Notes under the pieces: model-generated
What the model was told of the DNA's origin: nothing
Database searches by the model: none
The model's input: the letters and a program-made list of their open reading frames with translations, nothing else
Program-made: the position numbers and the translations under genes
Virus record (IMG/VR): IMGVR_UViG_3300030117_002061
Location: 1 to 21,911 of that record
DNA from: a virus
Direction: 5' to 3' (one strand)
DNA length: 21,911 bases
Shown: one piece after another, positions 1,173 through 17,877 of the stretch
Layout: each line of letters opens with the position of its first letter
How positions within the stretch are numbered: the first letter of the stretch is position 1

Positions 1173-1297
1173 AATACAAACCAAAAAATAAAAATATAGT
1201 AAAACTTAAAAGGTATTTAGATATGAATTGGAGTTCAAGCAACACTTGGAATTATGAAGTAAGTTATAACAATCAAACAGTAAAAGATGTCAAGTAA
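1169..1297 (+). CDS. Small hypothetical protein between connector and tail fibre
   Basis: This short frame encodes about 42 basic residues from GTG at 1169, or 45 from ATG at 1160. GTG is preferred because it makes a 4-base GTGA overlap with the connector stop, the junction style used throughout this genome. The N-terminal half is lysine-rich ('KYKPKNKNIVKLKRYL') and the C-terminal half has tryptophans and tyrosines ('NWSSSNTWNYEVSY'). It overlaps the fibre gene start by 11 bases. Without it the 114-base gap would be noncoding, which is unusual here. No function is recognised. Confidence 0.5.
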   Translation: MKYKPKNKNIVKLKRYLDMNWSSSNTWNYEVSYNNQTVKDVK

Positions 1298-4200
1298 AAA
1301 GTTTTCAGAGTTTACGTTACAGACAGATAGTTCTAATGTTGCGTTTGTTGTTGGTTTTAATGGTTCAGATAATGTTAGAATATCACCTAGCAATCTTATA
1401 GGTAGTGGTTTCTTACCTACCTCTGGTGGTACTATGACAGGTAACTTACTTTTACAAGACAACATACAAGTTCAAGTAGGTACAGGAGGAGACCTAAAGT
1501 TATATCATAATGGTACAGATTCATTTATCGAGAATCAAACAGGCATCTTAAAAATACAAAGCTCTGTTGTAGATGGTGATATATCGTTTCTTGCAGATAA
1601 TGGTAGTGGTACTGCCACAGAATACTTTAGATTAGACGGTGGTGATGGTATAACAAGAGTTGCTAGAAACTTTAGAGCTAATGATAACGTAGCTCTACAA
1701 GTGGGTGTTGATGGTGATGCAGGTATGTATCACGATGGAACAAATACTTATTTTCAAAATGACACAGGAAATTTAATATTATTGCAAAATACTAACGATG
1801 GAGATATAATATTTCAATGTGATGACGGTAGTGATGGTGTAACTACATATTTGTTTTTAGATGGAAGCAACGCTTTTACACAAGTATTAAAAGATTTTTA
1901 CTTCTTAGATAGCGTTATGGCTAGATTTGGTGATGGTGGTGATTTGCAAATCAATCATAACGGCAGTAACAGTGTTATTGATAACGTAACAGGCGATTTG
2001 TTTATTAGGCAATTCACTGATGATGGTGATATAAGATTTCAAAGTGATGACGGCAGTGGTGGTACAACTGAATACTTTAGGGTAGATGGTGGTAGTGAGG
2101 TAGTGCATTTTTCTAAAGATTTTATAATAGCTGATAATGTTAAAGGTAGGTTCGGTGATGGTGGTGATTTACATATATATCACAATAGCACTGATTCTTT
2201 CATAGACAATAGCACAGGTACGTTTAATATAAGAAGCACAGTTACTGATGGTGATATTGTATTTAAAGCTGATAATGGTGCAAGTTCTACAACAACATAT
2301 TTTAAAGTTGATGGTACTAATTTTAGAACTAGCTTTGAACAAGATATACATATAATTGATAATAAAAAATTAAATATCGGAACTGGGAATGATTTACAAA
2401 TATTTCACGATGGAAGTGGAAGTAAAGTAGAAAATTACACAGGTAATCTTACAATACAACAAAGAGCTGATGATAGTGATATTGTTTTCCAATGTGATGA
2501 TGGCAGTGGTGGACTAACAGATTATTTTAGATTAGATGGTAGTCAAGCAGATGGCACATATAAATATATTGATTTTCCTGATAATAGTGTTATTTCTTTA
2601 GGAGATAATGATGCAGCTATTTTTCACGATGGCACTGATACAAGAATAAAAAATGAAACAGGTGATTTATTCATATCTCAGTTTGCTAATGATAAAGATA
2701 TTGTGTTTAGAAGCGATAATGGCAGTGGTGGTATTACAGAATATTTTAGACTTGATGGTGGAACTGTAACAAATATATTTAGCCAACATACAAACTTCAT
2801 AGATTCAAAAAAAGCATTGTTTGGTACAGGTAGTGATTTAGAGATTTACCACAACGGCACGGATAGTAAAATTGAAAATACTAATGGGGATTTACAAATA
2901 TCAAACTTTGCAGACGATAAAGATATTATATTCAAATCTGATGACGGTAGTGGAGGTACAACTGAATATTTTAAATTAGATGGTTCTGCTGTATTTACTA
3001 GATTTAGTAAAGATGCTAGATTTTCTGACGATGTAAAAGCAGAGTTTGGAGATTCTGGTGATTTAGATATTTATCACGATGGTACAGATTCTTATATTGA
3101 AAACACTACTGGCAATGTGTATTTTATGCAAAGAGCTGATGATAAAGATATAGTTTTTCAAGCTGATGATGGCTCTGGTGGTGATACTACATATTTTAAA
3201 CTAGATGGTGCTACGTCAAAAACAATATTTGAAACAAGTTCAAGGCATAAAGATAATGTAAAAGCTAACTTTGGTGATGGCGAAGATTTACAAATATACC
3301 ACAATGGTAGTAATTCTTTTATACAAGATGCAGGTACAGGTGGTTTAGTCCTTTTAAGTAATCAAACCAGTATTAATAATGCTAGTAATAGTGAAGATAT
3401 TGCTAAATTTATTGCAGATGGTGCAGTAGAACTTTACTACGACAATAGCAAAAAGATTGAAACCTCAAGTACAGGTGTAGATGTTTCAGGAGATATAACT
3501 TTAAACCCAACAAGTACAAGCAATAATGCTGCACCTCACAAATTAGTATTTAAAGGTACTGATTATCAAGGTAACACAGACACATATGGTGAAATAGGTT
3601 TTGAAGATGACGGAAACCTTACTCAAGACGGCTCAAATTTTTATATAAAAGGTAACTCAGATAGTGGTAGTTTATATAACATAATGACATCAGACGGATA
3701 TGGTCAAATAACTTTTGGTTCTAATGTTTCTGGCGTTGCTAATTTAACTTGTACAGGAATTAACACAGGGCAAGGAACCAATGAGGTTTATGCTATGGAC
3801 CAAAATGTTAGAACAACTGATGATGTAACTTTTCGTTCTGTCTCAATTACAAGTGATGGTTCAGATGCTGATGGAGCAGAAATATTTTTAAAACACGCAA
3901 ATAATAATACCACAGATACAATAGGTACTGTACACTTTGGTAATAATGCTGATACAAGTTTATCAACTATTGTCTCAGAAACTGCAACTAACAATACTAC
4001 AAGTAATTTAGTATTTAAAACATCAGCAACAGGCACAGTTGGTACAGTATTAACATTAGGTTCAGATAAAAGCGCAACTTTTACTGGAATAGTTGACGCT
4101 GTAAACTTTAAAATTAATGGCGCACAAGGTTCTGATGGTCAAGTATTAACATCAACAGGTAGTGGTGTAGCTTGGGAAAATGCAAGTGGTGGTGGCAGTA

Positions 4201-4634
4201 GTACAGATTCTTTTGTTCTAAATTTTTCAGCGAGTCATAGTAGCAACAACACAAGCAATTACTATGTTTTTAGAAACAAGTCAAATAGTACAATGCTTAC
4301 GTTTGGTACATCACACACTCACGCAGGAGATTATTATTATGCTTCTCTAGTTATGCCTGTTGCTTGTTATTTAAAGACTGTGCATATTAAGAACATACAG
4401 ACTACTCCGTCAGCAACAGTTGCAAAAATGAAAATATTTAAAAATGATAGTACAGTAGAGTTTGACGGCAGTAACATCAGTTGGAGTGGTGCAGGTTCAA
4501 CAGGTGCATCGTGGACACAAACTCTTTCAAGTTCTGATAATAGTTTTGCAGCAGGTGATAGAGTAGATATAGGGTTTAACTTAGATGGTACAATGGGTGG
4601 TGTTACTTGTACTATGCTATTTGAATTAACATAA
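1287..4634 (+). CDS. Large repeat-built tail fibre / receptor-binding protein
   Basis: This 1115-residue protein has the build of a marine phage tail fibre. Residues 1-58 form an N-terminal segment ('KKFSEFTLQTD', then 'PTSGGTMTGNL') probably used for virion attachment. Residues 59-656 hold eight tandem modules of 74-75 residues, each with 'GDLxIYHNGTDSxIEN', 'DDKDIVFxxDDGSGG' and 'TEYFRLDG'; a ninth degenerates after about 25 residues. A beta-rich shaft follows (about 680-960), then a hinge ('GQVLTSTGSGVAWENASGGG') and a final domain of about 135 residues that likely contacts the receptor. The modules suggest an elongated trimeric shaft; trimerisation is inferred from family behaviour. ATG 1287 overlaps the preceding small gene. 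There is no visible autoprotease or depolymerase motif. It is followed 10 bases later by a small fibre-adjacent gene. Confidence 0.85.
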   Translation: MSSKKFSEFTLQTDSSNVAFVVGFNGSDNVRISPSNLIGSGFLPTSGGTMTGNLLLQDNIQVQVGTGGDLKLYHNGTDSFIENQTGILKIQSSVVDGDISFLADNGSGTATEYFRLDGGDGITRVARNFRANDNVALQVGVDGDAGMYHDGTNTYFQNDTGNLILLQNTNDGDIIFQCDDGSDGVTTYLFLDGSNAFTQVLKDFYFLDSVMARFGDGGDLQINHNGSNSVIDNVTGDLFIRQFTDDGDIRFQSDDGSGGTTEYFRVDGGSEVVHFSKDFIIADNVKGRFGDGGDLHIYHNSTDSFIDNSTGTFNIRSTVTDGDIVFKADNGASSTTTYFKVDGTNFRTSFEQDIHIIDNKKLNIGTGNDLQIFHDGSGSKVENYTGNLTIQQRADDSDIVFQCDDGSGGLTDYFRLDGSQADGTYKYIDFPDNSVISLGDNDAAIFHDGTDTRIKNETGDLFISQFANDKDIVFRSDNGSGGITEYFRLDGGTVTNIFSQHTNFIDSKKALFGTGSDLEIYHNGTDSKIENTNGDLQISNFADDKDIIFKSDDGSGGTTEYFKLDGSAVFTRFSKDARFSDDVKAEFGDSGDLDIYHDGTDSYIENTTGNVYFMQRADDKDIVFQADDGSGGDTTYFKLDGATSKTIFETSSRHKDNVKANFGDGEDLQIYHNGSNSFIQDAGTGGLVLLSNQTSINNASNSEDIAKFIADGAVELYYDNSKKIETSSTGVDVSGDITLNPTSTSNNAAPHKLVFKGTDYQGNTDTYGEIGFEDDGNLTQDGSNFYIKGNSDSGSLYNIMTSDGYGQITFGSNVSGVANLTCTGINTGQGTNEVYAMDQNVRTTDDVTFRSVSITSDGSDADGAEIFLKHANNNTTDTIGTVHFGNNADTSLSTIVSETATNNTTSNLVFKTSATGTVGTVLTLGSDKSATFTGIVDAVNFKINGAQGSDGQVLTSTGSGVAWENASGGGSSTDSFVLNFSASHSSNNTSNYYVFRNKSNSTMLTFGTSHTHAGDYYYASLVMPVACYLKTVHIKNIQTTPSATVAKMKIFKNDSTVEFDGSNISWSGAGSTGASWTQTLSSSDNSFAAGDRVDIGFNLDGTMGGVTCTMLFELT
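1461..3254 (+). repeat. Eight tandem 74-75 residue modules inside the tail fibre gene
   Basis: Units start at about 1461, 1686, 1911, 2136, 2361, 2583, 2805 and 3030, that is, 225 bp each with two units of 222 bp. They share protein motifs (GDL..YHNGTDS, DGDI.F, DDGSGG, YF.LDG), but the DNA has diverged considerably, so this is an old protein-level repeat rather than a recent duplication. A partial ninth unit starts at 3255. Confidence 0.85.
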
Positions 4635-10121: not shown

Positions 10122-11045
10122 ATGCTTATAAACTATTCAGACCATATTAACAGACTTAACAACTTTCGTAAAGGCAAAGTAAAAGAATCACTTACAATAG
10201 GAATAAAAGAGTTTGACAAACATTTTAGGTTTGTGCATAGCAATTTGGTAATGTGGTTAGGGTTTCCAAACATAGGTAAGACACATTTTGTAATCTACAT
10301 AATGATGCTTTATGCTATAAAACATAAATTAAAGTTTTTAATTTTTTCAAGTGAAAATGACCCTGTTAGTTTGATACGCAAAATGATTGAAATGAGATAT
10401 GGTTTGCCAATAAATAAAATAGAAGAAGCAGACTATGTGAAAGGTGTAGATTTTGTAGATAAACATTTTAAGTTTGTCGATTGTTCAAAACAATATACCT
10501 ATACAAGTTTGCTTGATTTAGCTACTAATATTAAAAATGCTTGGGAGTATGATTGTCTAATGATTGACCCTATAAACTCTTTGAAGAAAGAAATAAAGGC
10601 AGGTAGTAATTCGTTTGAATATGGCTACGAGCAGCTTACTGAAATAAGAATTTTTTCAAAGAAACATAACATAGCTACTTGGGTTTGTTTACATACAAAT
10701 ACTGAAGCACTAAGAAAAGTACACCCTAAAGGACACGATTTTGAGGGTCAACCTGCTGTACCAAATTATGCCTCAGCAGAAAATGGACAGATGAACGCTT
10801 CTAGGTCTTGTGATTTTGTTACATTACATAGATACATATACGACAAAAGAGATTGGATGTACACAAGAATGTACGTTAGTAAGGTAAAAAACCAAGAATT
10901 AAATTACCGTCCAAATTCAATAAACGAACCCATAATGTGGAGAAGTATTAAAAACAATGTAGGTTTTGAAATAGCAGGTAAAAACCCAATAAAATATCCA
11001 ACTAAGAAACAACTAACCATTGACAATACTAGAAAAAATAGCTAA
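10122..11045 (+). CDS. DnaB-type replicative helicase ATPase domain
   Basis: This 307-residue RecA-fold ATPase has Walker A 'GFPNIGKT' at residues 47-54, a strand ending 'IFSSEND' at 74-80, where the catalytic Glu of DnaB-like enzymes sits, and Walker B 'CLMIDP' at 145-150. Later segments 'TWVCLHTN' and 'ASAENGQMNASRSCDFVTLHR' correspond to the sensor and loop regions of the DnaB/Twinkle/RepA class. At this length it is the ATPase domain without the DnaB N-terminal domain or a primase domain. It likely unwinds the replication fork as a hexamer. The ATG abuts the preceding terminator, so expression needs readthrough or a later start; no other Met precedes Walker A except Met44. It overlaps the next gene by 26 bases. 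Confidence 0.8.
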   Translation: MLINYSDHINRLNNFRKGKVKESLTIGIKEFDKHFRFVHSNLVMWLGFPNIGKTHFVIYIMMLYAIKHKLKFLIFSSENDPVSLIRKMIEMRYGLPINKIEEADYVKGVDFVDKHFKFVDCSKQYTYTSLLDLATNIKNAWEYDCLMIDPINSLKKEIKAGSNSFEYGYEQLTEIRIFSKKHNIATWVCLHTNTEALRKVHPKGHDFEGQPAVPNYASAENGQMNASRSCDFVTLHRYIYDKRDWMYTRMYVSKVKNQELNYRPNSINEPIMWRSIKNNVGFEIAGKNPIKYPTKKQLTIDNTRKNS

Positions 11046-11520
11046 ACATCACAAGCTCTGGGTAAAACAAGTTATATCTTTTGGCTGTAAACCATCTGAT
11101 GCTGAGGATGTAGTTCAGAATATGTATATCAAAATAAACACCTTAATAAATTCTGGTCTTGATATTACGTTTGACCAAGACATAAATAAGTTTTATATAT
11201 ATCGTACCCTTAAAAGTTTGTTCTATGACCAATGTAGAAAAGAGGCTAAGATACAAAAAGTAAACATAGAGTATTTAGAAAAGTATATTAAGGAAGAAGA
11301 AGAGTATAAAGAAAAAGATGTTGCAGGTAAGATAAAAGAATACAACAAAATACTAGATGAGTTGTACTGGTATGATAGAAAAGTCTGGGAGCTTACACGA
11401 GAAAAGAGTATCGCAGAAGTTAGTAAGCTAACAAACATTAGTTATTATTCGTTATATAATACAGTAAAAGGTGTTAAAAGATTAATAAAAGAAAAAATAC
11501 AATGGGACTTGGAGACTTAA
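11020..11520 (+). CDS. Phage sigma-70/ECF-like sigma factor
   Basis: The 166-residue product has the two-domain build of a small sigma factor. Region 2: 'SDAEDVVQNMYIKI' (26-39), matching the 'DAEDLVQ' core-binding helix, then 'FYIYRTLKSLFYDQCRKEA' (58-76), matching the -10 recognition helix. An acidic linker follows (about 84-118). Region 4: 'SIAEVSKLTNISYYSLYNTVKGVKRLIKEKI' (130-160) reads as a helix-turn-helix. It probably directs host RNA polymerase to phage promoters. The start is TTG at 11020, the only usable start before region 2, overlapping the helicase gene by 26 bases. Target promoters are unknown; a recurrent motif is noted under findings. A transcription-regulator role without core binding is the alternative. 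Confidence 0.7.
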   Translation: MTILEKIAKHHKLWVKQVISFGCKPSDAEDVVQNMYIKINTLINSGLDITFDQDINKFYIYRTLKSLFYDQCRKEAKIQKVNIEYLEKYIKEEEEYKEKDVAGKIKEYNKILDELYWYDRKVWELTREKSIAEVSKLTNISYYSLYNTVKGVKRLIKEKIQWDLET

Positions 11521-12777: not shown

Positions 12778-12920
12778 AAAAACTTATAGATGAATTAGTA
12801 ATCTTAGATGATTGTGTAGTAACAGGTACTTTTAAGTGGAGGTCAGAGATTGACCCTAATTGGAAACCTATGGTATGGAATGAAACCTTTGAATGTTGGA
12901 CTAAGAATTACTGTGGATAA
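12774..12920 (+). CDS. Small Trp-rich protein, 48 aa
   Basis: This is coupled to the previous gene by ATGA and to the next by GTGGATAA. The product has 'KLIDELVILDDCVVTGTFKWRS' and then five further Trp/Cys/aromatic positions ('NWKPMVWNETFECWTKNYCG'), suggesting a small folded beta unit. The three Cys residues could bind a metal. No family is known to me. Confidence 0.5.
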   Translation: MKKLIDELVILDDCVVTGTFKWRSEIDPNWKPMVWNETFECWTKNYCG

Positions 12921-13206
12921 AAAAATAGACAACCTTAAAGACATAGAGATTTGGTCAGACTTACATTTCTTGACTTCTATTGTCTCCTCCCAATTAGATA
13001 AAAGAAAAACAAAGAACTTACAAAAGATGTCCGAATCTTTAGTCAGGGTTGTTTTTTATTTTCAAGAATACTCTAACAACATACGATTATATAAACAAGC
13101 ACTTTCAGAATATAGACTTACAAAAAACAGAGCAATAGAAAGAGCAAGAAAAGCAGAAAAAGAAAATGAAAGATTACGAAAACAAAATGAAAGCCTTAGC
13201 ATTTAG
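12913..13206 (+). CDS. Helical coiled-coil protein of the early region
   Basis: GTG at 12913 is preferred over ATG 12880 or TTG 12850, because the earlier starts would lie wholly inside the preceding gene while GTG gives an 8-base junction. The product is about 97 residues: 'MDKKIDNLKDIEIWSDLHFLTSIVSSQLDKRKT', 'ESLVRVVFYFQEYSNNIRLYKQA', then a basic coiled coil 'RAIERARKAEKENERLRKQNESL'. I recall similar proteins preceding the RecE-like gene in flavobacterial phages, but their job is unknown. An assembly or DNA-associated scaffold is plausible from the coil alone. Confidence 0.6.
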   Translation: MDKKIDNLKDIEIWSDLHFLTSIVSSQLDKRKTKNLQKMSESLVRVVFYFQEYSNNIRLYKQALSEYRLTKNRAIERARKAEKENERLRKQNESLSI

Positions 13207-14862: not shown

Positions 14863-15105
14863 ATGGATAAACGTAAACTTAATGGTGGTAAGAGAGAGGG
14901 AGCAGGTAGAAAACCAAAGGCAGAGGAAGTAAAACTAATAGAGAAACTTACACCACTAGAGCCATTAGCATTTGAAGCTCTTAAAAAAGGTTTAGAGAAA
15001 GGAGACTTTAAATATGTACAACTATACTACAATTATGTAGCAGGTAAACCAAAAGAAACAAAGGACATACATATAAACGAAGATGTACCTTTATTTATTG
15101 ATTAA
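14863..15105 (+). CDS. terS: Terminase small subunit-like protein
   Basis: From ATG 14863 the product is 80 residues; an upstream TTG at 14839 is rejected because it lies inside the palindrome and adds an unconserved-looking leader. The N-terminus 'NGGKREGAGRKPKAEEVK' is the basic segment typical of phage small terminase or DNA-packaging proteins, followed by helices 'LEPLAFEALKKGLEKGDFKYVQLYYNYVAGKPKE', which end in the 'GKP' turn often seen in these proteins. It recognises phage DNA and feeds it to the large subunit. The stop and next start share one base (TAATG). It is shorter than many small terminases but usual for this class. Confidence 0.8.
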   Translation: MDKRKLNGGKREGAGRKPKAEEVKLIEKLTPLEPLAFEALKKGLEKGDFKYVQLYYNYVAGKPKETKDIHINEDVPLFID

Positions 15106-16274
15106 TGCAACTAACTAAAACCTCAGCACTTAACAAACTAAGAGAACTAAACAAAAGAGTTCGCATAATTAGAGGTGGTTCTTCAGCAGGTAAAACAATA
15201 GGCATTATAGCAATCCTTATAGACTATGCAATAAGACACAAAGGAAAAGAAATAAGCATAGTAGCTGAATCAATACCACACTTGCGTAGAGGCGCTTTAA
15301 AAGATTTTCTTAATATACTTAAGGGTCTGAATAGGTATGATGATAGAAAGTTCAATAAGAGTACCTTAAAATACGAATTTAGCAACGGTAGTTATATAGA
15401 GTTCTTTAGTACAGACCAACCAGACAAACTAAGAGGAGCAAGAAGAACAGACTTATTTATTAATGAGTGTAACAATGTGAGCTTTGATTCTTACCAACAA
15501 TTAGCAGTAAGAACGTCAGGTAACATCTGGCTTGACTTCAACCCTGCTAATTTATTTTGGGTAGATAAAGAACTTGTAGGACAACAAGACACTAACTTCA
15601 TAACCTTAACCTACAAAGATAATGACAGCTTACCTGCATCAATAGTTAAGGAAATAGAGAAAGCAAAGACAAAAGCTAAGACCTCAACCTATTGGGCTAA
15701 TTGGTGGAAAGTGTACGGTCTTGGACAAATTGGTAGTTTAGAGGGTGTATGTATTCCTGATTGGAAACCTATTGATAATATACCTGATGAGGCTAGATTA
15801 CTTTGCTCTGGGTTAGACTTTGGTTATTCTGTTGACCCCTCAACTATTATAAGACTTTATAAATGGAATGATGCTTATATATTTGATGAGGTACTTTATC
15901 GTAAAGGAATGTTAAATAGAGACCTCAGCTATTTCATAAAACAGAACGAGATACGAGAACAAATATACGCTGATAGTGCAGAGCCTAAGTCTATTCAAGA
16001 ATTAAGAAACTACGGACATAAAGTTTACCCTGTAACAAAAGGTAGAGATTCTATTGTCTATGGTATTAATCTAATTAACCAAAATGAAATATACATTACA
16101 AGTCATTCTAAAAATCTAATAAGAGAGCTGCAAGGTTATATATGGGATAAAGACAAAGAGGGTAACAATCTACAAAAACCTACTGGCACACACCCAGATT
16201 GTATTGATGCAGCAAGATATGCACTAATGATGCAACTTAAAAACCCAAATAGAGGTAACTATGCAATACAATAA
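15105..16274 (+). CDS. terL: Terminase large subunit
   Basis: The 389-residue packaging motor has Walker A 'GGSSAGKT' (24-31), Walker B 'DLFINE' (116-121, catalytic Glu121), a coupling-motif region around 'DFNPAN' (144-149), and an RNase H-like nuclease domain with 'LDFGYSVDP' (Asp238), 'YADSAEP' (Asp290) and 'HPDCIDAARYAL' (Asp365/Asp368). ATPase and nuclease parts are both intact, so it should translocate and cut concatemeric DNA. Length is at the short end of normal. It follows the small subunit by a one-base overlap and is followed by a 143-base regulatory gap rather than the usual portal gene. Confidence 0.95.
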   Translation: MQLTKTSALNKLRELNKRVRIIRGGSSAGKTIGIIAILIDYAIRHKGKEISIVAESIPHLRRGALKDFLNILKGLNRYDDRKFNKSTLKYEFSNGSYIEFFSTDQPDKLRGARRTDLFINECNNVSFDSYQQLAVRTSGNIWLDFNPANLFWVDKELVGQQDTNFITLTYKDNDSLPASIVKEIEKAKTKAKTSTYWANWWKVYGLGQIGSLEGVCIPDWKPIDNIPDEARLLCSGLDFGYSVDPSTIIRLYKWNDAYIFDEVLYRKGMLNRDLSYFIKQNEIREQIYADSAEPKSIQELRNYGHKVYPVTKGRDSIVYGINLINQNEIYITSHSKNLIRELQGYIWDKDKEGNNLQKPTGTHPDCIDAARYALMMQLKNPNRGNYAIQ

Positions 16275-16307
16275 ATGTTAAAATTATGTTAAAGAAATGT
16301 TAAAGTT
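16275..16307. repeat. Three 11-bp tandem repeats starting ATGTTAAA
   Basis: ATGTTAAA begins at 16275, 16286 and 16297, exactly 11 bp apart (ATGTTAAAATT, ATGTTAAAGAA, ATGTTAAAGTT), starting at the first base after the terminase stop. One-helical-turn phasing would put three sites on the same DNA face, as for a cooperatively binding regulator. They lie about 57 bases upstream of the -33 element of the cassette promoter. Confidence 0.65.
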
Positions 16308-16363
16308 TATACTATTCTTCTCTGTTGGATAAAAATAATTAAAAAAAAGGTTCTTAACAATAG

Positions 16364-16393
16364 TTGAAAAACTAAAATATAGTTGTATATTTA
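16364..16393 (+). promoter_or_regulatory. Bacteroidota-type promoter of the moron-like cassette
   Basis: TTG at 16364-16366, a 19-base spacer and TATATTTA at 16386-16393 match TTG / TAnnTTTG with one mismatch at the last base. Transcription would start near 16400, just before the 'AAAACAAAACAAAATG' leader of the first gene at 16418. Confidence 0.6.
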
Positions 16394-16417
16394 AGTGTAA
16401 TTATAAAACAAAACAAA

Positions 16418-16552
16418 ATGAACAGATTAACATTTAACCAAGAAGAACAACAAATTTTAAGAGATTTAATTCTTAATTGTAACGATAATAAATTAATTAG
16501 TAATTTTAGAACTCAAAGATTAATTAAAAAATTAAACTCAAACTCGATTTAA
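16418..16552 (+). CDS. Cassette gene 1: small helical protein, 44 aa
   Basis: ATG follows the leader 'AAAACAAAACAAA', the A-rich initiation style of flavobacterial genes. The product is helical and Asn-rich ('LTFNQEEQQILRDLILNCNDNKLISNF', then 'TQRLIKKLNSN'). Possible helix-turn-helix character is too short to call. No family is recognised. It is the first gene after the cassette promoter. Confidence 0.55.
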   Translation: MNRLTFNQEEQQILRDLILNCNDNKLISNFRTQRLIKKLNSNSI

Positions 16553-16564
16553 AAACAAAACAAA

Positions 16565-16720
16565 ATGGAAGATTTAATAAAAGGTTTATATAAAAATAAC
16601 AAAAGCAAGTTGGTTTGGTTTGTAGATGATTTACAAGATGAAGTAGTAGTTTATAGAAATAATCAAACTAAATTAATTAGCAAAGAAAACTTTTTAAATA
16701 ATTGGACAAAACACATTTAA
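16565..16720 (+). CDS. Cassette gene 2: small hypothetical protein, 51 aa
   Basis: This again follows an 'AAAACAAAACAAA' leader, nearly identical to that of cassette gene 1. The product 'MEDLIKGLYKNNKSKLVWF' continues with a strand pair 'DDLQDEVVVYRNN' and a final 'KENFLNNWTKHI', suggesting a small beta-hairpin domain. No family is recognised. The 12-base gap and repeated leader suggest a duplicated expression signal rather than translational coupling as in the rest of the phage. Confidence 0.6.
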   Translation: MEDLIKGLYKNNKSKLVWFVDDLQDEVVVYRNNQTKLISKENFLNNWTKHI

Positions 16721-16740
16721 TAACAATAAAACAAAACATT

Positions 16741-17130
16741 ATGAAAAAAGTAAAAAATTTAAGCGAAATACTAACAAGAGATTACATTATGGTTTACCAA
16801 ACCGAATCATTAGAAGAAACTAATCCCAAAAAAGTTAAGATTACAAAACTAGAGGCACAAATGATACACTCTATATTTTTGGGAGAGGGTAGTGGTGTTG
16901 CTTGGGGTTATTCAGAATTCGAAAGATTTGATGGTAGCTTAACAAATCAAGACAAAGGTGTATTATCTAGCTTATACAAAAAAGGTTTAATATTCGAATC
17001 GGAGATTAATCAAGGTATGGGGTATCATCCAGAAACAGGCGAATGGTCATCAGAGATTATTATACCTACTTGGTCTAGTTGTAACAGCGAATTTGATTTT
17101 ATTAGATTCCCTGAACAAAATTGGAATTAA
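16741..17130 (+). CDS. Cassette gene 3: hypothetical protein, 129 aa
   Basis: ATG 16741 is chosen over TTG 16702, which lies inside cassette gene 2; the leader 'AAAACAAAACATT' resembles that of the two preceding genes. The protein has a helix-rich middle 'KLEAQMIHSIFLGEGSG', a segment 'LTNQDKGVLSSLYKKGLIFESE' that reads like part of a winged-helix or marR-like fold, and an aromatic acidic end 'WSSCNSEFDFIRFPEQNWN'. No membrane or catalytic motif is visible. Its neighbours are the terminase and the tail chaperone, to which it seems unrelated, and it ends just before a terminator. Candidate roles, such as host takeover or exclusion of other phages, are guesses from position alone. Confidence 0.65.
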   Translation: MKKVKNLSEILTRDYIMVYQTESLEETNPKKVKITKLEAQMIHSIFLGEGSGVAWGYSEFERFDGSLTNQDKGVLSSLYKKGLIFESEINQGMGYHPETGEWSSEIIIPTWSSCNSEFDFIRFPEQNWN

Positions 17131-17164
17131 CACAAATGCAATTATCATAAAAAACAATATAAAG

Positions 17165-17190
17165 ACCTCTACGAAAGTAGGGGTTTTTTT
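17165..17190 (+). terminator. Rho-independent terminator closing the cassette
   Basis: Stem ACCTCTAC (17165-17172) pairs with GTAGGGGT (17177-17184) with one T-G wobble around a GAAA tetraloop, followed by a T7 run to 17190. It separates the cassette from the tail genes. Confidence 0.85.
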
Positions 17191-17212
17191 ATGCTCTAAA
17201 ACTTTTATTTAT

Positions 17213-17224
17213 TACGTTATATAA
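17213..17224. promoter_or_regulatory. TACGTTATATAA motif just upstream of the tail operon
   Basis: TACGTTATATA (17213-17223) is the exact reverse complement of the TATATAACGTA copies at 8508 and 8548. It lies between the cassette terminator and the tail chaperone ATG (17227), where a new transcription start is expected. It is so close to the ATG that, as a -10 element, it would give a transcript starting inside the gene; a start at ATG 17239 or an upstream-binding activator would resolve this. Confidence 0.45.
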
Positions 17225-17226
17225 AT

Positions 17227-17877
17227 ATGAAAGTAGAAATGTACATACCTGACACTCTAAACGAAATTACATTAGGACAATACCAAAAGTATATCAAGTA
17301 TCAAAACGACAATGATGACGAAAATTTCTTAGCAATTAAAATGATAGAAGTATTTTGTGGTTTGAGAAATAATACAGTAAGAGCCATGAAAGCTAAAAGC
17401 ATTAGCGATATATGTAAGATACTAGTAGATATGTTTAACGAGAAACCTGACTTAGTAAAGCAATTTAAAATGAACGGTATTACTTATGGTTTTATTCCAG
17501 ACTTAGAGAATATCACATTCGGAGAGTATATTGACTTAGATACGTTTATAGGTGATTTTGAAAATATGCACAAAGCTATGTCTGTATTATATAGACCAAT
17601 AACACAAAGCTATAAAGACAAATATCTTATTGAGAAATACACAGGCGATAAATCTGAAGATATGATTCATATGCCGATGGATGCTGTATTTGGTTCTATA
17701 CTTTTTTTTTATCATTTAGGGATGGAATTATCGACAGCTATGCTGAACTCTTTGGAGGGTCAGGAGGAGGAGAACTTAGTGCATTATCTCAATTCAACAA
17801 AAAATGGGGATGGTATCAATCAATTTACAGCCTCTCTCAAGGAGATATTGGAAGATTTGAAAATATCACTAAACTAA
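17227..17877 (+). CDS. Tail assembly chaperone, short form (gpG-like)
   Basis: The 216-residue protein begins 'YIPDTLNEITLGQYQKYIKY' and has helical segments typical of the proteins that precede tail genes in Bacteroidota siphophages. These include 'ENFLAIKMIEVFCGL', 'ITFGEYIDLDTFIGDFENMHKAMSVLYRPI' and 'HMPMDAVFGSILFFYHLG'. Such chaperones bind the tape measure and recruit tail tube subunits. Its last ~220 bases overlap an open -1 frame with no start codon, encoding a conserved-looking domain, so this is the zero-frame product of a frameshift pair. The start may be ATG 17227 or 17239, the latter giving MYIPDTL. Confidence 0.75.
   Translation: MKVEMYIPDTLNEITLGQYQKYIKYQNDNDDENFLAIKMIEVFCGLRNNTVRAMKAKSISDICKILVDMFNEKPDLVKQFKMNGITYGFIPDLENITFGEYIDLDTFIGDFENMHKAMSVLYRPITQSYKDKYLIEKYTGDKSEDMIHMPMDAVFGSILFFYHLGMELSTAMLNSLEGQEEENLVHYLNSTKNGDGINQFTASLKEILEDLKISLN

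Follow-up and report, generated by a model that had tools for sequence, protein, structure and literature searches.

Phage morons are extra units that lie between genes adjacent to each other in related phages, carry a promoter and a terminator of their own and deviate in base composition; the term comes from work on HK97 and HK022, cited in PMC7067206. Two further systems offer points of comparison, the start-associated sequences of Cluster K mycobacteriophages, short conserved sequences found right before many unrelated small genes (PMC3203893), and GOLLD and ROOL, long structured non-coding RNAs on phages (PMC12286853). The locus described here, a slot between the terminase gene terL and the first tail gene, tailA, that carries a three-gene cassette in the phage analyzed, has traits in common with each. 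Like a moron, the cassette is an extra low-GC unit that has a promoter-like site and a terminator to itself and is placed between genes that are neighbors in relatives; unlike morons, it occupies a site that has been reused repeatedly with constant bookends, a tyrosine integrase went undetected in the relatives searched, and structured RNA serves as alternative cargo in relatives. As in Cluster K, a short conserved sequence directly precedes unrelated small genes, but the leaders of this slot are A-rich, have no Shine-Dalgarno-like core and occur mainly within one slot. Like GOLLD and ROOL, the slot RNA of the relatives is a long structured non-coding RNA on phages; unlike them, it measures ~340-370 nt, matches no Rfam 15 family at the gathering score (a permissive search gave only sub-threshold matches) and, by sequence profile, is absent from the window. 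The explanation that accounts best for these observations, to which we assign a probability of roughly 85%, is that marine Bacteroidota phages have long kept an accessory slot between terL and their first tail gene, that the cassette is one of its occupants, and that the cargo is most likely directed at the host in lytic infection.

The window, that is, the whole 21,911-bp stretch of an IMG/VR virus record that was analyzed, holds the cassette at positions 16275-17190 (Table 1). It is composed of three ATGTTAAA repeats, a promoter-like site, three small genes encoding proteins of 44, 51 and 129 aa, and a strong terminator hairpin. This layout had been noticed in an earlier, sequence-only reading and is borne out: the repeat copies, ATGTTAAAA, ATGTTAAAG and ATGTTAAAG, start at 16275, 16286 and 16297 with an exact 11-bp period, the three small genes with their near-identical A-rich leaders are present, and the terminator is indeed strong, a 12-bp hairpin that leads into a U-tract (-16.6 kcal/mol, z = -5.15, with none of 200 shuffles as stable). 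A stock promoter and terminator scan missed this terminator, probably because the stem reaches into the T-run, and returned promoter matches near the chance level.

Table 1. Features of the terL-tailA slot and its borders in the window.
Feature	Position	Strand	Evidence
Terminase large subunit gene (terL), bordering the slot upstream	15105..16274	+	PHROG phrog_2 5e-42; Pfam Terminase_3C 5e-19, Terminase_3 4e-17
Three ATGTTAAA(A/G) direct repeats, 11-bp period	16275..16305	+	directly after the terL stop
Upstream bookend: repeats, promoter-like site and first leader	16275..16418	+	82-92% identity in eight relatives with unrelated cargo
Putative sigma-A-like Bacteroidota promoter, TTG-N19-TATATTTA	16364..16393	+	sequence match; region kept in relatives with other cargo
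A-rich leader of gene 1	16405..16417	+	leader motif search
44-aa ORF, putative gene 1	16418..16552	+	open reading frame
A-rich leader of gene 2	16552..16564	+	leader motif search
51-aa orphan gene (gene 2)	16565..16720	+	second copy in the L008 slot; dN/dS about 0.16
A-rich leader of gene 3	16728..16740	+	leader motif search
129-aa orphan gene (gene 3)	16741..17130	+	present in three other phage types; purifying selection
Downstream bookend: terminator and empty-site sequence (TCTAAAACTTTT...TTACGTTATATAAATATG)	17147..17226	+	88-94% identity
Intrinsic terminator GACCTCTAC-GAAA-GTAGGGGTTTTTTT	17163..17190	+	z = -5.15; same terminator in relatives with other cargo
tailA, first gene past the slot, downstream border	17227..17877	+	phrog_32199 4e-20; weak phrog_166 tail match

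The promoter claimed in the same reading fared less evenly. The TTG at 16364 is followed after N19 by TATATTTA at 16386-16393, the site is intergenic and it recurs in relatives, but the TTG-N19-box pattern is not rare by itself and its count in the window is at the chance level (4 found vs 2.6 expected), so the evidence for a promoter consists in its intergenic place and its recurrence. In flavobacteria, the -7 box of sigma-A is TAnnTTTG (PMC9723704). An independent cassette transcript is predicted. In the whole window, AAAACAAAACANNATG is matched exactly by the leaders of genes 1-3 (AAAACAAAACAAAATG, AAAACAAAACAAAATG and AAAACAAAACATTATG) and nowhere else, and each of the three ORFs is preceded by AAAACAAAACA(AA/TT)ATG; A-rich leaders are of the kind favored by flavobacterial ribosomes, and an A at -3 favors translation in flavobacteria (PMC6847099). 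Past the terminator, the segment 17191-17226 (TCTAAAACTTTT...TTACGTTATATAAATATG), which is conserved in both empty and filled loci, is the sole sequence able to hold a promoter for the tail genes. The element TACGTTATAWATATG before tailA was considered as a repeated late promoter and rejected, the window containing just one copy. Elsewhere in the window, a weak match to sigma-70 region 2 was found at 11020-11520, and positions 1287-4634 encode a 1115-aa protein with many GDLxIYHNGxxSxIxNxTG-like repeats, perhaps a tail fiber.

The identification of terL is certain. Portal genes, expected after it in the earlier reading, do not normally occupy that place in this lineage, as a portal-family C-terminal region lies at 1-669 of the window; the gene normally next to terL is tailA, whose PHROG has no assigned function, complemented by a weak tail match, and a relative of which directly follows terL in Nonlabens phage P12024L. 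For comparison of the slot, the sequence between the terL stop and the beginning of tailA was extracted from 80 terL relatives, and a terL DNA tree was built for 71 loci, the window included. In 33 of these the slot is empty, with terL and tailA 37-41 bp apart, and the remaining 38, including the window, contain 296-1671 bp of varied cargo, so that the unit is absent from many close relatives in which both flanking genes are intact. The empty and filled states interchange at least 8 times on the tree (6 of these changes are forced by well-supported branches). The empty site reads TAGTTTCTAAAACTTTT...TACGTTATATAWATATG, and in filled loci the insert sits between the terL stop and TCTAAAACTTTT. 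Being empty or otherwise filled in close relatives, the slot seems to accept optional functions in the manner of a plug-in site. In the loci with ~83% identical terL, the slot is always filled and ends in other terminators, and the cargo may therefore be a fixed component in those groups; a cargo protein that recurs in these loci has a relative in the window ORF at 12850-13206. Two other observations concern individual slots: a tRNA gene lies within the slot of one relative (L061:7541-7614; Rfam RF00005, 68 bits), and in the slots of L063, L070, L076, L078, L081 and L084 the first cargo gene is preceded by a conserved leader, GTTGTTAAAGTCAGATCCC...GGATCGGTTGAGTGAGCAAAGG..., which may be a further structured RNA.

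Within the window's own group, eight protein-type relatives are 82-92% identical to the cassette over its first ~120-160 nt and 88-94% identical over its last ~67-90 nt; between these bookends, similarity is confined to short A-rich leaders at the gene starts, and the cargo ORFs vary from locus to locus. Comparison of these sequences shows that the putative upstream control region and the terminator stayed constant and the cargo changed. A set of 27 cargo proteins from the slots has almost no family matches, and defense annotation of the cargo proteins of the other slots yielded nothing convincing. Among the terL relatives, the 51-aa gene has a second copy in L008 only, where it is the first gene of the same slot (88% aa identity), and the 44- and 129-aa genes occur in none; for the 44-aa ORF, no relative was found.

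Many filled slots of the window's group contain no ATG ORF longer than 42 aa within the cassette, and these ORF-less cassettes combine a different promoter region with a related terminator. A pattern derived from one of them retrieved an RNA family of ~340-370 nt (alignment A3; for example, L093:1073-1422 on the minus strand, L003:1221-1579 and L188:4924-5254). In an alignment of 12 members, pairing reaches 95.7% over the 47 predicted pairs but only 39-47% once these are slid, and both partners vary in 22 pairs, compared with at most 9 after sliding; it is on this strong covariation that the structure claim rests. Single-sequence folding of the RNA cassettes gave mixed z-scores (+1.3 to -2.7). 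Among the loci compared here, the sequence profile finds the family in 35 entries, several of which are copies of one contig. Most members lie in the terL-tailA slot, even at 26-30% terL identity to the window, and some elsewhere; in L003/L004, a member is located directly upstream of the 129-aa gene. The ORF-less cassettes in the slots of L007, L015, L027, L038, L092, L095, L100 and L105 (189-631 nt) look modular: that of L092 seems to consist of an L105-like part and an L007-like part, and those of L092, L105 and L100 match the 3'-terminal two thirds of this RNA family. A more far-reaching proposal sees the terL-tail slot as a port through which virulent Bacteroidota phages in general express interchangeable protein operons or structured RNAs under constant control regions, and the ~340-370-nt RNA as a new class of functional phage RNA with a task of the same kind as that of the proteins, host takeover or counter-defense; we regard this proposal as tentative, at clearly less than even odds.

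Four viral contigs, representing three other phage types, carry the 129-aa gene, which is located after a tail gene in L002, after the major capsid gene in L003/L004 and before the terminase genes in L005, and followed each time by a GC-rich hairpin and a T-run (by eye). In 8,989 bp, L002 and the window have one common segment of 449 bp (91%), which comprises the 129-aa gene and its leader. As judged from such alignments, the gene is shown to have moved by itself between otherwise unrelated phages. Its dN/dS of 0.11-0.22 indicates purifying selection, and the gene is therefore a selected protein gene. A profile search of viral contigs for distant relatives returned the same loci only, and none was detected in 397 Flavobacteriaceae genomes, a set without a positive control. 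The anti-phage or host-interaction function suggested earlier for the cassette is not established, given that the three window proteins have no PADLOC match up to E 0.1 and no significant Pfam match.

Structure prediction, also suggested in that reading, was run for the 129-aa protein on a four-row alignment and gave a model of pLDDT 47 that leans, weakly and without significance, to winged-helix folds. Such a lean would fit a winged-helix DNA-binding regulator of phage or host genes, with the two small proteins as accessories, and a weak PHROG match (E 0.002) across the presumed recognition helix, the helix-helix-helix-strand order of the poor model and several MarR/MecI-type winged helices among the Foldseek matches, none of them significant, point the same way. 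The low pLDDT, a best Foldseek E of 0.23 and the absence of a PDB sequence match all speak against this assignment, which is possible but doubtful.

The repeat array may bear on cassette control. Dinucleotide shuffling of the leader produced a triple 8-mer at a period of 9-13 in 1 of 20,000 trials. Read on the minus strand, the array is TTTAACAT-N3-TTTAACAT-N3-TTTAACAT; 149 Flavobacteriaceae genomes contain 72 matches to the two-copy motif, compared with 4 to its reversed control, and the spacers of the window (AAT and TTC, minus strand) are among the commonest in these matches. Because of this enrichment and the common spacers, the array is probably a site for a host-type transcription factor. 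It also occurs just upstream of a -7 box in other phages (L088, L098), but is not essential to the design, since L014 and L033 retain the same promoter with a single repeat copy. The sequence TTTAACATNNNTTTAACAT recurs in the Flavobacteriaceae genomes 5' of a small membrane protein that precedes an alanine-dehydrogenase-like gene (e.g. L141, L153, L168). A leftward promoter from the array into terL was considered and discarded, no conserved -7 box being apparent by eye.

Phosphate-starvation control of phage genes is known for cyanophages, and the 8-bp direct repeats with 3-bp spacers and an 11-bp period would suit a Pho box; in that case, the cargo would be made when host PhoB binds the repeats under phosphate starvation. 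Besides the strong enrichment of the motif in Flavobacteriaceae, the same triple array adjoins pst genes in L114, L123, L125 and L130 (a few distant taxa, with genes named by eye). However, no phosphate gene was recognized downstream of the motif in ~30 Flavobacteriaceae contexts judged by eye, the recurrent downstream genes being those for a membrane protein, an rpsF-like protein and repeat-rich secreted proteins, and the array runs in the opposite orientation to the slot promoter. The motif is thus real in Flavobacteriaceae without recognizable phosphate genes after it, and the Pho box, kept as a rival only, is improbable.

The cassette had also been described as textbook moron design, and this description stands for its architecture. 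By the structural definition the cassette is a moron: its flanking genes are neighbors in close relatives (37-41 bp apart in 33 of the 71 loci), its terminator is its own and conserved (z = -5.15), and its GC content deviates (25.4% vs 31.4% for the window, in the lowest 2% of equal-sized windows), although the 129-aa gene alone is at 32.3% and the low value stems from the two smallest genes and the leader. In the strict sense, a moron would be expressed from the prophage and serve the lysogen, for instance in superinfection exclusion, and an autonomous promoter-like site with a terminator is the classical design (PMC7067206). The search for tyrosine integrases found none in 10 relative records, possibly fragments, two of them of ~48 and 53 kb, so a lysogen function lacks support, and the 397 Flavobacteriaceae genomes contained no relative of the 129-aa protein. 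A strict moron is improbable as well, and for the same lack of tyrosine integrases a lytic role is to be favored. Least credible of all are ordinary structural or packaging genes lost in some relatives, to which the position between packaging and tail genes and the common direction would be suited, since no cassette gene shows the conservation in all lineage members typical of a virion protein (only L008 has one of the three, the 51-aa gene), other filled slots carry unrelated genes, the cassette has its own promoter-like site and terminator, and the 129-aa gene occupies different places in other phage types. The earlier reading had named conservation of this gene trio throughout the relatives, in the role of virion proteins, as grounds for giving up the moron view; the comparison gave no such result.

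For the accessory-slot explanation, the following course of events may be envisaged. Cargo would be exchanged by ordinary homologous recombination in terL and tailA, in the conserved bookends and in the repeated A-rich leaders. Transcription of the cassette would start at a host sigma-A promoter, with a host regulator on the 11-bp repeats perhaps modulating it, and the terminator would insulate the cassette from the tail genes. Most likely, the proteins would act on the host during lytic infection, in takeover or counter-defense, and neither in the virion nor in the lysogen.

The novelty lies in a slot whose control regions stay constant while the cargo alternates between operons of orphan proteins and structured RNAs. 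It constitutes a defined and screenable site in common marine phages that collects small genes and RNAs which probably act on the host, and thanks to its constant flanks, cargo can readily be harvested from metagenomes. The alternation of proteins and a structured RNA at one locus also means that the function of a new phage RNA is testable by exchange.
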